Assembly: GCF_009900715.1 (NCBI RefSeq)
Contig: NZ_JAAAJC010000002.1
Location: forward strand, 1-64,000
Direction of reading: 5' to 3'
Origin: Halococcus salsus
GTDB taxonomy: Archaea; Halobacteriota; Halobacteria; Halobacteriales; Halococcaceae
Length of the DNA stretch: 64,000 bases
The position numbers were made by a program, and so were the translations under genes. This document shows, in pieces, positions 3,424-8,315 of this stretch; positions within the stretch are counted from its first letter, which is position 1, and each line of letters opens with the position of its first letter. The notes beneath the pieces are model-generated. The model had not been told where the DNA came from, ran no database searches, and saw nothing but the letters and a program-made list of their open reading frames with translations.

Positions 3424-4419
3424 TTACTGTTCGCCTGCACGCGCCGTGTCGATGCGCTCGCGCTGGTCGTCGGAGAGCGAGATCTCGACCGCGCCGACGT
3501 TGTCGTCGAGTTGGTCGGTGGTGCGCGCGCCGACGATCGGGACACAGGTGAACTGCTCGCGCTCAATGAGCCAGCGGAGCGCGACCTGGGCCGGCGTGGC
3601 GTCGAGCTCGTCGGCGATCGCCCGAACCTCGTCGAGGACGTCCCAGCCGCGGTCGGAGACGTAGTAGTCGTCGAAGAACTCGTCGAAGGTGCCACGGGAG
3701 CCGTCGGGCGACTCGACGTCGTGGGTCCCCTCGCCAGCGCGCTCGTACTTCCCGGTGAGGAAGCCGCCCGCGAGCGGCGAGTACGGACAGACGGCCAGGT
3801 CCTGGTCGGCACAGACGTCCAGGTACTCGGCGACGTCGTCGTAGTAGGCGGCGTGGAAGAGCGGCTGGGTGACGTCGAACCGTTCGAGGTTTTCCACATC
3901 CGACTTCCAGAGCGCCTTCGTGAGCTGCCAGCCCGCCATCGTGCTCGCCCCGAGGTAGTTGACCTTCCCCTTGCGGACGAGGTCGTTGAGGGTGCGAAGC
4001 GTCTCCTCGATCGGGGTGTCCTCGTCGAAGCGGTGGATGTAGTAGAGGTCGAGGTAGTCGGTTCCCAACCTATCGAGGGTCCCCTCGATCTGGGTGCGGA
4101 TGTGCTTGCGACCGAGGCCGCTGCCGTTGGGGTTGTCGGGGTCGAAGCCGAAGAAGACCTTCGAGGCGATGACGTAGTCCTCGCGGTCGCGGCCCTCCAG
4201 CCAGTTCCCGATGTACTTCTCGGCCGTGCCGTTCGGGTCGCCGTAGACGTTCGCGGTGTCGATGAAGTTGATGCCGTGGTCGGCGGCGGCGTCGAGGAGC
4301 TCGTGGCCCTCCTCCTCGTCGGTTTCGAGCACGTCGCCGGTTCGCTTGCCGAAGCGCCACGTCCCGAAACAGAGTTCTGAAACCGTCAGTCCCGTCGAGC
4401 CGAGTGTCGTGTATTCCAC
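3424..4419 (-). CDS. Aldo/keto reductase
   Basis: 331 aa from the GTG at 4419, which gives the family-typical N-terminus VEYTTLGSTGLTVSELCFG; an upstream in-frame GTG at 4443 would add eight residues. A (beta/alpha)8 NAD(P)H-dependent oxidoreductase related to the YghZ/YdjG-type AKRs. The catalytic tetrad is visible: Asp and Tyr in FIDTANVYGDPNG, Lys in VIASKVFFG and His in YYIHRFDEDT. The C-terminal cofactor segment VPIVGARTTDQLDDN is present. Convergent with the lipoprotein gene. Substrate unknown. Confidence 0.9.
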   Translation of the reverse strand: MEYTTLGSTGLTVSELCFGTWRFGKRTGDVLETDEEEGHELLDAAADHGINFIDTANVYGDPNGTAEKYIGNWLEGRDREDYVIASKVFFGFDPDNPNGSGLGRKHIRTQIEGTLDRLGTDYLDLYYIHRFDEDTPIEETLRTLNDLVRKGKVNYLGASTMAGWQLTKALWKSDVENLERFDVTQPLFHAAYYDDVAEYLDVCADQDLAVCPYSPLAGGFLTGKYERAGEGTHDVESPDGSRGTFDEFFDDYYVSDRGWDVLDEVRAIADELDATPAQVALRWLIEREQFTCVPIVGARTTDQLDDNVGAVEISLSDDQRERIDTARAGEQ

Positions 4420-4491
4420 ATCGGCCGATCGACGGTTGTCCACAAAGCGATTCGGGATGCGGCGGTTCGGACGAGCGCGCCCGACGTCGCC

Positions 4492-5472
4492 TCAGTCGTC
4501 GCACTCGTTCCAGGTCTCCGGGTTCGCGTCGGGCCCGCCGGCGGTGTCGGAGTCGACGAACGCCGCGAGCCGCCGGAGTTCGACCCGGAGTTCCCGCCGG
4601 CCCAGCACGGCGAACCCGAGCGCGACCACCGCGAACCCGAGGACGGTCGTCGGGGTGATGGACTCGCCGAGGAGGAGCCAGCCGCCGACCGCCGACACGA
4701 CGGGCACGACGTAGAACGCGAGGTTCGCCCGGATCGCGCCGACGTCGTCGAGCAGCCCGAAGTAGACGATGTAGGCGATCGCGCCGGAGAACAGACCGAC
4801 GTAACCGAGCGCGAGGAGCGCCGTGGGCGTCCACTCGATCGCGCTCAGCTGCTCGCCCGCGCCGAACGCGACGAGGTGACAGAGGAGCGCCCCGACCGGC
4901 ACACCCCACGCCGTCCGGGCGATGCTCGTGTAGTCGGCGTCGGCCCACCGGATCAACACGCTCCCGAGCGCGGCACACACCGCCCCGCCGAACAGGACGA
5001 GGTACCCGGCGAGACCGCTGTCGAGCAGGGTCGCCGGGTCGATACCCACGACGAGCGCGACGCCGACGAACGCGACCGCCATCCCGACCGCGCCGTACTC
5101 CGGCAGCGACTCGTCGGAGAGGAGGAGGGCGGCGAAGATCGGGGTCAGCACGGGGTTGAGGCTGAAGACGATCGAGGCCACCGCGCTCGTGGCGTACTGC
5201 TGGCCGACGAACAGACACGCGTTCGCCAGCCCGATCGCGAACACGCCGGCCGCGAGCGACCCCAGAACGTCGTTCCTGGTTCGTGGGATCCACTCGGACC
5301 GGTCGTGGGTCAGCACCACGAACCCGAGCAGGAGGACCGTGGCGATGTCGAACCGAAACGAGACGAACAGCAGCGGCGGGATGTAGGCGATGCCGGCCTT
5401 CGCCGCGACGAACGTCCCGCCGAACAGCAGGGCCGTCGCGACGAACAGCAGGGGGACCCGGTGGCGCGCCAC
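4492..5472 (-). CDS. EamA (DMT) family transporter
   Basis: 326 aa, about ten membrane helices in two EamA repeats. The N-terminus, VPLLFVATALLFGGTFVAAKAGI, is the standard first helix with the G-G-T-F turn. The start is a GTG at 5472. The C-terminal 30 residues are hydrophilic and acidic and probably face the cytoplasm. It is transcribed toward the aldo/keto reductase, 72 bases away, and may be cotranscribed with it. It is distinct from the EamA protein at 1117-2031. Confidence 0.88.
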   Translation of the reverse strand: MARHRVPLLFVATALLFGGTFVAAKAGIAYIPPLLFVSFRFDIATVLLLGFVVLTHDRSEWIPRTRNDVLGSLAAGVFAIGLANACLFVGQQYATSAVASIVFSLNPVLTPIFAALLLSDESLPEYGAVGMAVAFVGVALVVGIDPATLLDSGLAGYLVLFGGAVCAALGSVLIRWADADYTSIARTAWGVPVGALLCHLVAFGAGEQLSAIEWTPTALLALGYVGLFSGAIAYIVYFGLLDDVGAIRANLAFYVVPVVSAVGGWLLLGESITPTTVLGFAVVALGFAVLGRRELRVELRRLAAFVDSDTAGGPDANPETWNECDD

Positions 5473-5592
5473 CCTACCGCTCCCTCCGGTTCGACACGAC
5501 GGGTCCGTTCATACCGTCGAGACGGCGTTGCGGGTGAAATACCTGTGCAGAAACGCCGACGGACCCTGATCGAATTTCACTGCGCGACGCGT

Positions 5593-5607
5593 ATTCACGG
5601 CGTGAAT
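5593..5607. promoter_or_regulatory. 15-bp palindrome between divergent genes
   Basis: ATTCACG-G-CGTGAAT, a perfect dyad with 7-base arms, in the intergenic region between the minus-strand EamA gene (start 5472) and the plus-strand operon at 5757. It resembles an operator for a dimeric regulator. No regulator can be named. Confidence 0.35.
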
Positions 5608-5700
5608 CGACCGCGACGAGGTCCCGCCATCCGGCGATCACACGGCCGATACCGAACAACGGAGCCGGTTCGAAGCGACCCGGTCGAACGCCACATGGGA

Positions 5701-5754
5701 TTTTAGGCAACCCGAAAAACCGAAACGCCTTTACCTCTTTAGGGTTGCCTAAAA
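5701..5754 (+). promoter_or_regulatory. Double DtxR/Idr/SirR-like operator around a TATA box
   Basis: Two dyads of the form TTTAGG-N4-CCTAAA flank the promoter. The downstream one, TTTAGGGTTGCCTAAA (5738-5753), has perfect half-sites and overlaps the expected transcription start. The upstream one (5702-5717) has TTTAGG and CCGAAA, one mismatch. Together they also form a perfect 13-base inverted repeat (5701-5713 and 5742-5754). The TATA-like element TTTACC (5730-5735) lies between them. The half-site matches what I know of haloarchaeal Idr/SirR (DtxR-family, Fe/Mn) sites. Confidence 0.6.
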
Positions 5755-5756
5755 CC

Positions 5757-5861
5757 ATGAACACGTTCGTCTCCGGATGGTCGGCCCCGGCGGGTTCGAG
5801 GGAAGCGGCCGGCCGTCCGGCAGCGCAGGTCGAATCGAGTACGGGGACGACCCGGTCATGA
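5757..5861 (+). CDS. Short leader ORF of the DUF7552/DUF7260-like operon
   Basis: 34 aa ORF starting at the first ATG after the double operator, about 26 bases from the TATA-like box, so it is the likely leaderless first cistron. Its TGA (5859-5861) overlaps the ATG of the next gene (5858) in ATGA fashion, the arrangement seen again at the next junction. The sequence (MNTFVSGWSAPAGS...) matches nothing I recognise. It may be a translation-coupling leader and not a functional protein. Confidence 0.45.
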   Translation: MNTFVSGWSAPAGSREAAGRPAAQVESSTGTTRS

Positions 5862-6211
5862 GCTCCCACCCGACGCTCCGCGAGATCCGTGCGCGGCTCG
5901 TCTCGCTCGCCAGCGAGGACGGCCGCTACGTCGTCGTCTGCGGGCGCACGGATGCCCGACCGGTGCCGGTTTCGGGGCTTCGGTTCGCCGACCGTGGGAC
6001 CGCGGCGAGCGCGGTTCGGGTGGCCGAGGCCTACCGCGCTCGTCTCCGTCGGTACGACCCCCGGCTCCCGGTCCACGAGTTCGTCGTCCACGAGACGGCC
6101 GCGACCGACCCGCGGGGCCAGCACCGGCGGGTGCCCGTATCGGTCGGCTGTGACGAGCCCTCACCGGCGAGTGACCGCGAAACGGCCGGTATGGCGGGTG
6201 ACGACCGATGA
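5858..6211 (+). CDS. DUF7552-like haloarchaeal domain protein
   Basis: 117 aa. The core (LREIRARLVSLASEDGRYVV, then ARPVPVSGLRFADR, then AAEAYRARLRRYDPRLPVHEF-like segments) fits a family seen only in Halobacteria, which I recall as DUF7552; the number is from memory. One Cys follows the VVV strand. The ATG at 5858 overlaps the upstream leader ORF, and the stop overlaps the next gene by four bases, so the three are translationally coupled. The promoter carries DtxR/Idr-like boxes, pointing to control by iron or manganese. Biochemical role unknown. Confidence 0.75.
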   Translation: MSSHPTLREIRARLVSLASEDGRYVVVCGRTDARPVPVSGLRFADRGTAASAVRVAEAYRARLRRYDPRLPVHEFVVHETAATDPRGQHRRVPVSVGCDEPSPASDRETAGMAGDDR

Positions 6212-6996
6212 CCGTCGAGACGTACGTCGAGCGCGCACGGGGCCGAGTGGACGACGAGCGAACCGCCACCGAGAACAAACGAGCGGCCTACCGCCGGTTC
6301 GTCGCGAGCGTGAAGGAGACGCCGACCGACTCGCCGGTCGGCCGTGGCGGCGGCCCGACCGCGATCGGGTCGGTGGCGGCGGCGAGTTCGACGGGATCGA
6401 GCGGCTGCGACCGGGTCCGCGAGCGGTTCGCCGACACCGTGGCCGGCCACCGAACCGTCGATTCGGACCCCGCCGACGGACTCCTCGAAACCGTCGCCGC
6501 CGAGCTCTCGGAGGGTATCGCGGTCGCGCTCGCGCCCGCGAACGGTGCCGCGAGCCTCACCGACGGGCTGAAACAGCGTGTGGTCTCGGAGGCGACCACC
6601 CGCCAGCACGAACTCCGCGTGATGGCGCGCGCCCTCGAAACCGAGGCCGAATCGCTGGCGGCGGCGGACGAGGCGCTCGGCGACGTCATCGAGTGGCTCG
6701 TCGAGGCGAACGAGACGCCGCTCACCGACTGCGACTTCGACGCACTGGCCGAACGGCACGACCGGCTCGCGACCCACCGCGAGCGCTGCCGGACGGTCGC
6801 GCGCGACCGGCAGGGGGTGCTTCGGACCACGACGAGCATCGACGCGACGATCGGGCTCGCTCAGCGGGAACTCACCGGCGGCCTCTACGAGGGATTTTCG
6901 GTGAACTACCCCGTCCTCTCGACGGCCGTCCGACTCGACGGGCTGTGTGCGGACTGCCAGGACGTCGTGCGCGACCACCTCGTCCGACGCGTTTGA
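6208..6996 (+). CDS. DUF7260-like haloarchaeal protein
   Basis: 262 aa, mostly helical, opening with TVETYVERARGRVDDERTA and the AYRRFVASVKE segment, which I associate with the haloarchaeal DUF7260 family. Long Arg/Glu-rich helices (residues 1-40 and 110-220) suggest a coiled-coil-like scaffold. A Gly/Ser-rich linker lies at about 45-60. The last residues hold a Cys pair (LCADCQD), a possible metal site. No signal peptide or membrane helix. ATGA overlap with the preceding gene. Function unknown; the likely metal-responsive promoter is the best clue. Confidence 0.75.
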   Translation: MTVETYVERARGRVDDERTATENKRAAYRRFVASVKETPTDSPVGRGGGPTAIGSVAAASSTGSSGCDRVRERFADTVAGHRTVDSDPADGLLETVAAELSEGIAVALAPANGAASLTDGLKQRVVSEATTRQHELRVMARALETEAESLAAADEALGDVIEWLVEANETPLTDCDFDALAERHDRLATHRERCRTVARDRQGVLRTTTSIDATIGLAQRELTGGLYEGFSVNYPVLSTAVRLDGLCADCQDVVRDHLVRRV

Positions 6997-7130
6997 CGAC
7001 CCGACCGGGTCGAGCGCTGCCGAAGTGCTCGATGATGGGGTTTCCACCCATCGTCGTCCGGTCGTGACGGGGTCGATCGACCGGAACCGAACGCGCCGGC
7101 TTTACGTCCCGGCCACGGGTTCGCAAACGA

Positions 7131-8315
7131 ATGACGGCGCGCGCTTCAGGGTGGTGGTCGCGACTCGGCGGGTACGACACGCTGGGGCTCGCGGCTGGAC
7201 TCTGGTTCCTCGCGAAGTTCCTCCGCTACGGGATCTCGGCGCTGTTCCCCCAGTTCCAGACGGCCTTCGGGGTCTCGAACGCCACCCTCGGGGCCGCCTT
7301 CTCCGCGATGATGGTACTCTACTCCCTCCTCCAGTTCCCGAGCGGCGCGCTCTCGGACCGGTTGGGAGAGGTCAAGATCATCGCCATCGGGAGCCTCGTG
7401 GCCGCGCTCGGGGCGTTCGTGCTCGGGGTCGGGGCTCCGTTCGCGGTCGTGCTCGTCGGGATGGCGCTCGTGGGACTCGGGACCGGGACCCACAAGACCG
7501 TCGCCGTCGAGCTGCTCGCGCGTGTCTACCCCGCGCGCGTCGGGCGGTCGCTCGGGATCTTCGACACCGTCGGCGCGCTCGGGGGCGTGGCCGCCCCCGC
7601 GGCGGTCGTGCTCGCGACGGGCACCGTGGGCTGGCGGGCCCTGTTCGCCCTCGGCGGGGTCTGCGGCGTCGTGCTCGTCGCAGGCGTCCTCCTCCGGGTG
7701 CCGCGTCGTGAGCGAACGGCGTCCGGGGGAGAGCGCTCGCTCGCGATCCGCCCCTACCTCGTGCTCTTTCGCGACCGCCGGCTCGCGGCGTTCGTCGTCG
7801 TGACGTTGTGTTTCGGGTTCGCGTACAACGGGCTCGTGGCGTTCCTCCCGCTCTACCTCACCCAGCGCGGCCTCGCGACCGGCACGGCCTCGTTGCTCTA
7901 CAGCCTCCTCTTCGCCGTCAGCGTGGTCCAGATCCTCACCGGCGGGCTCTCGGACCGGCTCGGCCGGCTCCCGCTCGCCGCGGTCGTGCTGAGCGTGGCG
8001 ACCGCCGGACTGGTGGGGCTCATCGGCCTCGGCGGTCTCGTGGGTCTCGGCGCGGCCGTCGTCGTGCTCGGGCTCGGGGGCCACGGCTTCCGACCGATCC
8101 GCGCGGCACACCTCTCGACGACCATCCCCGAGGAGATCGCCGGCGGCGGGTTGGGCCTCGTGCGAACCCTCCTGATGGGCGTCGGGGCGGTCGCACCCGC
8201 GGTGGTCGGGGTCATCGCCGACGTCTCGGATTTCAGGGTCGCGTTCTCGCTGCTCGCGGTCTCGATGGCCGCCGGCGCGGTCGTCGCGGTCGGGCTCGCC
8301 GTCACCGAGCAGTAG
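7131..8315 (+). CDS. MFS transporter
   Basis: 394 aa, about twelve membrane helices. The major facilitator signature G-x-L-x-D-R-x-G occurs in both halves: GALSDRLGEVK near residue 70 and GGLSDRLGRLP near residue 275, each in the cytoplasmic loop between helices 2-3 and 8-9. The ATG at 7131 follows a CTTTACG box by about 30 bases. It is a single gene; substrate cannot be inferred, though proteins of this type are often annotated as sugar or drug exporters. Confidence 0.88.
   Translation: MTARASGWWSRLGGYDTLGLAAGLWFLAKFLRYGISALFPQFQTAFGVSNATLGAAFSAMMVLYSLLQFPSGALSDRLGEVKIIAIGSLVAALGAFVLGVGAPFAVVLVGMALVGLGTGTHKTVAVELLARVYPARVGRSLGIFDTVGALGGVAAPAAVVLATGTVGWRALFALGGVCGVVLVAGVLLRVPRRERTASGGERSLAIRPYLVLFRDRRLAAFVVVTLCFGFAYNGLVAFLPLYLTQRGLATGTASLLYSLLFAVSVVQILTGGLSDRLGRLPLAAVVLSVATAGLVGLIGLGGLVGLGAAVVVLGLGGHGFRPIRAAHLSTTIPEEIAGGGLGLVRTLLMGVGAVAPAVVGVIADVSDFRVAFSLLAVSMAAGAVVAVGLAVTEQ

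Follow-up and report, generated by a model that had tools for sequence, protein, structure and literature searches.

In Halococcus salsus, the operon coding for a DUF7552 and a DUF7260 protein very probably belongs to the haloarchaeal iron regulon; this membership in the low-iron response is proposed because the dyads of its promoter recur in front of its relatives in many genera, often beside genes of siderophore-iron transporters. The DtxR-type regulators of haloarchaea include FeR, Idr1/Idr2, SirR and TroR, and Leyn and Rodionov reportedly described, in 2015, the haloarchaeal iron regulon of FeR. The dyad itself, TTTAGG-N4-CCTAAA, is one that we take to be a site of the FeR/Idr/SirR type. 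This assignment draws on the iron genes that accompany the dyad in this genome and on the ferR signal found on all fhu genes and operons of Haloferax volcanii, as stated in a study of that species (PMC11349517). Regulons of this kind are already known; among the papers searched, which did not include that of Leyn and Rodionov, none assigns DUF7552 or DUF7260 to one of them or names either family.

Twin Dyads in the Promoter

The window, i.e., the whole stretch of 64,000 nucleotides that was analysed, contains the operon with the following elements.

5702–5717, no strand assigned: box 1, the upstream dyad TTTAGGCAACCCGAAA, with one mismatch, 5′ of the BRE/TATA
5720–5735, + strand: BRE-like CCGAAA (5720–5725) and TATA-like CTTTACC (5729–5735), as read from the sequence
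5738–5753, no strand assigned: box 2, the downstream dyad TTTAGGGTTGCCTAAA, with no mismatch, between the TATA and the first ATG
5757–5861, + strand: leader, a frame of 34 codons of no family, dN/dS about 1.1, with an ATGA overlap with DUF7552
5858–6211, + strand: DUF7552 protein, 117 aa, short form (Pfam PF24422, 1.1e-32)
6208–6996, + strand: DUF7260 protein, 262 aa, helical, ending in C-x-x-C...HLVRRV (Pfam PF23921, 8.3e-70)

Dyads were searched with the pattern TTTAGG-N4-CCTAAA, and the reversed pattern served as control. The original prediction of two dyads 36 bases apart, with a TATA element between them, agrees with what was located: one box is perfect, the other has one mismatch, their starts are 36 bp apart and the BRE/TATA-like elements lie in between. 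In the 64 kb of the window the two boxes are the sole matches at up to two mismatches, with 0.14 expected, and none of 100 shuffles of the window gave two matches. The ATG at 5757 is the first one and lies about 25 nt past the centre of the TATA-like element, which puts the probable start of transcription on this ATG or beside it; box 2 would therefore be placed between the TATA and the start, and not on the likely start itself, where the perfect box had been put. An Rfam scan of positions 5400–7300 gave no match, and a scan for sigma-70 promoters, which is of a type not suited to archaea, found none.

Dyads in the Genome and in the Genus

The whole genome (3.5 Mb) contains 18 dyad sites at up to one mismatch vs 0 for the reversed pattern; at up to two mismatches there is no excess (30 dyads vs 47 reversed controls), and weight was thus given only to dyads with 0–1 mismatch. 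Across ten Halococcus genomes, perfect dyads number 40, against one for the control. The 18 sites were grouped into 14 places, one of which is the DUF7552-DUF7260 operon, while nine belong to iron genes, as follows: an ATPase gene of the ABC type adjoining FecCD; two binding-protein genes, one divergent from a ferritin-like gene and one from a peroxidase gene; four more Peripla_BP_2 genes (C2:249079, C4, C5 and C7:53617, by contig); a siderophore-synthesis operon with Aminotran_3, pyridoxal decarboxylase, IucA_IucC and acetyltransferase; and the gene of a short DtxR-like protein (Fe_dep_repress), located behind a perfect dyad. The remaining four places, C1:549076, C2:324084, C3:68173 and C7:12742, are without an evident iron gene, the one at C3:68173 being near a cupin gene and a methyltransferase gene. 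Another Peripla_BP_2 gene, on C3 near 247437, has a dyad pair with two mismatches each and stands outside the count of 14.

The operon resembles the known DtxR-family iron regulon of haloarchaea in that the same dyads precede, in this genome, genes for siderophore-type binding proteins, transporters, siderophore synthesis and a DtxR-family protein; it differs in the genes that are controlled, which here are DUF7552 and DUF7260. The DtxR-family regulators encoded in the genome comprise two PF02742 matches over the cut-off, together with the short Fe_dep_repress protein. The original prediction had tied the operon, through DtxR-family control, to either iron or manganese; the companion iron genes and the conserved dyads speak for iron, whereas the manganese half of the claim is not sustained, the recognisable companions being all ferric-siderophore or iron genes. 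Control by manganese, or by metals in general, was also considered and rejected, as no manganese transporter is present among the dyad-controlled genes whose families were scanned, a subset of the dyad neighbours. Counting against the iron reading, a proteome study of iron-starved Hfx. volcanii found that SirR and TroR did not change significantly (PMC11349517).

Conservation of the Dyads in Relatives

Of the 195 genomes that were sampled within the order, 112 contain DUF7552, and the comparison set consisted of 80 loci, kept out of 107, from named genomes. In 45 of the 80 a perfect dyad lies within 450 bp upstream of DUF7552, vs 0/80 for the reversed control, and a downstream control interval of the same length (+300 to +750) has a dyad in a single locus; the density of perfect dyads is 1430 per Mb upstream vs 22 downstream, i.e., about 65-fold higher. 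Allowing one mismatch, a dyad is present within 450 bp in 46 loci and anywhere upstream in the locus stretch in 70, while the ten loci without a dyad in the stretch examined are mostly a second Haloferax paralogue. This dyad-less paralogue (L081, L095, L110, L111, L112, L118, L119 and L133) has TrkA-like and FAD oxidoreductase genes among its neighbours, and another paralogue in the genus does have a dyad.

When DUF7552 is directly followed by DUF7260, a dyad is found upstream in all 29 loci, within 450 bp in 27 and farther up in two; the loci derive from 13 named genera (12 from Natrinema and 16 from 12 other named genera, plus one from a MAG), and being related, with 12 of the 29 in Natrinema, they do not give independent counts. 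Conservation upstream of the orthologues, on which the original prediction hinged, was thus observed. Adjacent dyad pairs in the 80 loci are 34–37 bp apart in 54 of 55 cases, and exactly 36 bp apart in 39; moreover, the location of the BRE/TATA between the two boxes is common to 27 aligned twin-dyad promoters of relatives. A dyad was also found upstream in 26 of 28 loci of a separate order-level set, in which 12 sequences are identical to members of the 80. The shared twin-dyad promoter, with its spacing of about 36 bp, offers a sharp pattern for listing further members of the regulon.

Seven Halococcus genomes contain eight DUF7552-DUF7260 operons, all with a dyad upstream. It is directly in front of the operon in five; in one it is 2.1 kb away, at a gene for a binding protein, and 870 bp separate that gene from DUF7552; in G005 and G006 a dyad pair heads a tight operon with the order binding protein-small ORF-FAD oxidoreductase-DUF7552-DUF7260, one box of the G006 pair having two mismatches. 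No dyad with up to one mismatch was detected at the 22 other DUF7260 loci retrieved from Halococcus, where some 1.5 kb to each side were covered.

Gene Neighbours

The companions most often seen in the 80 DUF7552 neighbourhoods are a binding protein (25), an FAD oxidoreductase (21), NifU (19), an ABC ATPase (19) and FecCD (16). Several Halorubrum loci show the order FecCD, ATPase, box-box, binding proteins, FAD oxidoreductase, DUF7552-DUF7551, and annotated plasmids agree with the location of DUF7552 beside siderophore-transport genes. In many relatives, DUF7552 is found in or beside ferric-siderophore ABC uptake operons (Peripla_BP_2, FecCD, ABC ATPase); however, transporter genes of this kind are not adjacent to it in the window or in the closest relative, G002, and neither DUF7552 nor DUF7260 is a transporter subunit by Pfam. 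The neighbours of the operon in the window are instead the following.

3424–4443: aldo/keto reductase
4492–5472: EamA transporter
7131–8315: MFS transporter

Among eight Halococcus stretches tested, the EamA and MFS genes of the window were matched only in G002; in G005 and G006, too, the operon is flanked by an ORF resembling the aldo/keto reductase of the window.

In Halostagnicola and Halobaculum, a short gene of the DtxR-like kind comes after a DUF7260 gene, the two overlapping by 4 nt in Halostagnicola larsenii, and in Haladaptatus and Hfx. mediterranei such a gene is near DUF7260. Short DtxR-like genes (126–140 aa) located after or near a DUF7260 gene or fragment are those at L152:4950–6151, L185:4001–5327, L151:6911–8401 and L154:5001–5881.

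The DUF7552 and DUF7260 Proteins

The two proteins match their Pfam families far above the gathering score of 27, with 112.5 bits for DUF7552 (PF24422, residues 6–80) and 235.4 bits for DUF7260 (PF23921, full length); together with the ATGA overlaps between consecutive frames at 5858 and 6208, these matches confirm the family assignments and the layout that had been proposed for them. No membrane-spanning stretch was found in the two proteins, the maximum 19-residue hydropathy being 1.28 and 0.59, and Pfam detects no DNA-binding domain in either. The Cys-x-x-Cys pair claimed to end the last protein is present as C247-x-x-C250, 12 residues from the end of DUF7260, but it is only part of a wider Cys/His set: in an alignment of 31 sequences C67 is conserved in 28, H184 in 29, C247 in 30, C250 in 27 and H257 in 28, and some members of the family are without the CxxC. 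In DUF7552, one Cys is conserved in 44 of 44 aligned sequences. The DUF7260 model is helical, with a mean pLDDT of 89.5; comparison of its fold with the PDB gave no useful structural match, and the VIA Z of up to 9.8 against helical bundles does not reach the caution level that the tool sets for helical proteins. Searching the PDB with sequence profiles yielded no hit of E <0.1, and an NCBIfam scan gave nothing above the cut-off.

Most relatives of DUF7552 are about 300 aa long and carry a DUF7551 domain behind DUF7552 (PF24420 was found in four long relatives scanned). In the window protein Pfam gives DUF7552 only, with DUF7551 absent, and a short form of this kind is shared with 8 of the 80 relatives. 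An alignment of DUF7551, with 44 rows of which two are without the domain, shows C123 conserved in 43, H124 in 41 and C164 in 42. The DUF7551 model (H. thailandensis, L084:2265–3194, residues 119–303) aligns with H-NOX, TRAPP and V4R-type domains with Z of 5.1–6.5; the match to H-NOX domains is weak, with an rmsd of 4.3–5.2 over about 150 residues, and a Foldseek search gave no match at E up to 0.001. The likeness consists in the helical front half and the alpha/beta back half, which align over the whole domain, while the difference lies in the low Z (not above 6.5), the rmsd of 4.4 and the lack of DUF7551 in the window protein. On the model, DUF7551 may be weakly H-NOX/TRAPP/V4R-like, which is to be taken as a hint only.

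The Leader Frame

The operon had been said to encode a leader of 34 aa. The frame exists, with its ATGA overlap, but the notion that it encodes a functional protein did not hold: its dN/dS between the two closest genomes is about 1.1, vs 0.14 for DUF7552 and 0.27 for DUF7260, and the 34-aa ORF has no match in Pfam. A functional leader peptide was ruled out on these grounds, there being neither a family nor protein-level selection. At the corresponding position, three other genomes of Halococcus have an in-frame extension of DUF7552, likewise unconstrained, with a dN/dS >1. Short frames that open 2–5 nt past the box and close between −4 and +9 relative to where DUF7552 starts occur in 13 of 17 eligible loci vs 5.3 in shuffles; however, those ending exactly at −4 are not in excess (6 vs 4.7 expected) and the count includes the near-duplicate pairs L104/L106 and L120/L134, so that the recurrence of short frames between box and DUF7552 is suggestive only.

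The binding-protein genes behind dyads start at a distance similar to that of the leader, and in Halosimplex aquaticum (L075, just upstream of 5989) the frame is clearly what is left of a lost gene, being the N-terminal part of a binding protein with a Tat lipobox (E 5e-14). Unlike this case, origin of the window leader from a lost binding-protein gene was not borne out: its comparison with the binding protein gave E 0.8, at shuffle level, with no relic detectable, and that of the L087 leader is marginal and also at shuffle level. The leader looks like a translated spacer, which in some lineages may be the remnant of a lost binding-protein gene.

Proposed Mechanism and Alternative Explanations

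The operon is likely to be repressed by iron through twin operators, and DUF7552 and DUF7260 are most likely cytosolic accessory factors of ferric-siderophore uptake. With sufficient iron, a metal-loaded regulator of the DtxR family would occupy both dyads and deny TBP/TFB and RNA polymerase access to the promoter; from the position of the dyads, which flank the BRE/TATA, a dimer on each of them would block assembly of the pre-initiation complex, and under iron starvation the promoter would open. Since transcription probably begins at or next to the ATG at 5757, translation would be leaderless and begin on the short spacer frame, followed by translation of DUF7552 and DUF7260 by termination-reinitiation at the ATGA overlaps; coupling of this type is established in Haloferax for other gene pairs (PMC6728339). 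Once the ferric siderophore has been imported, both proteins would work together with the FAD oxidoreductase that is encoded with them in many relatives, and would take part in freeing, passing on or sensing the iron; the conserved Cys/His are candidate ligands of a metal or cofactor. Post-import iron handling was preferred in view of the partner genes, which code for the FAD oxidoreductase and transporters, and of the conserved Cys/His; we consider the chances about even that the proteins are factors handling or sensing iron rather than anything else.

The dyads might also be due to chance, or be common to promoters in general and unrelated to iron, and at up to two mismatches they indeed show no excess over the reversed control (30 vs 47). 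This explanation is contradicted by the dyad counts, i.e., 40 perfect dyads vs 1 control in ten Halococcus genomes and a density about 65-fold higher upstream of DUF7552 than downstream (1430 vs 22 per Mb); the spacing fixed near 36 bp and the iron genes found as companions also argue against it, and it is extremely improbable.

Two further alternatives keep the operon within the iron regulon and assign its products other roles; we regard both as unlikely, and equally so. They could be regulatory proteins, DUF7552-DUF7551 sensing siderophore or haem via a V4R/H-NOX-like fold and tuning the regulon together with DUF7260 and the short DtxR-like protein, in which case the window copy would be a cut-down one, with no sensor domain. 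The fold hint of DUF7551 (H-NOX/V4R/TRAPP) and the short DtxR-like gene after DUF7260 in Halostagnicola and Halobaculum, or near it in Haladaptatus and Hfx. mediterranei, are consistent with such a role; however, the fold match is weak, with Z not above 6.5, the window protein is without DUF7551, at most loci the common families of neighbours do not include a DtxR-like gene and, by Pfam, DUF7552 and DUF7260 are without a DNA-binding domain. Alternatively, the operon could serve iron sparing or stress repair, e.g., Fe-S supply or remodelling, rather than siderophore processing, as the NifU-like gene near 19 of the 80 loci and the conserved Cys/His might suggest; yet NifU lies several kilobases farther downstream, in loci that are syntenic with one another, whereas the partners in tight operons are genes for the binding protein, the FAD oxidoreductase and the ABC transporter.

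To our knowledge, how iron is released from an imported ferric siderophore has not been worked out in haloarchaea. For Hfx. volcanii, evidence on siderophore export and reimport was lacking, as stated in the study of that species (PMC11349517). As a tentative extension of the accessory role, one that we hold to be somewhat improbable in its full form, DUF7552(-DUF7551) and DUF7260 may constitute an undescribed cytosolic module of haloarchaea that releases, chaperones or senses siderophore iron together with the FAD oxidoreductase. In most species this module would include a ligand domain of the H-NOX/V4R-like type; it would have conserved Cys/His sites and, in iron-rich cells, be repressed through its twin operators. 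The connection of these unnamed families with the iron regulon and with siderophore transporter operons makes them concrete candidates for deletion in tractable strains.
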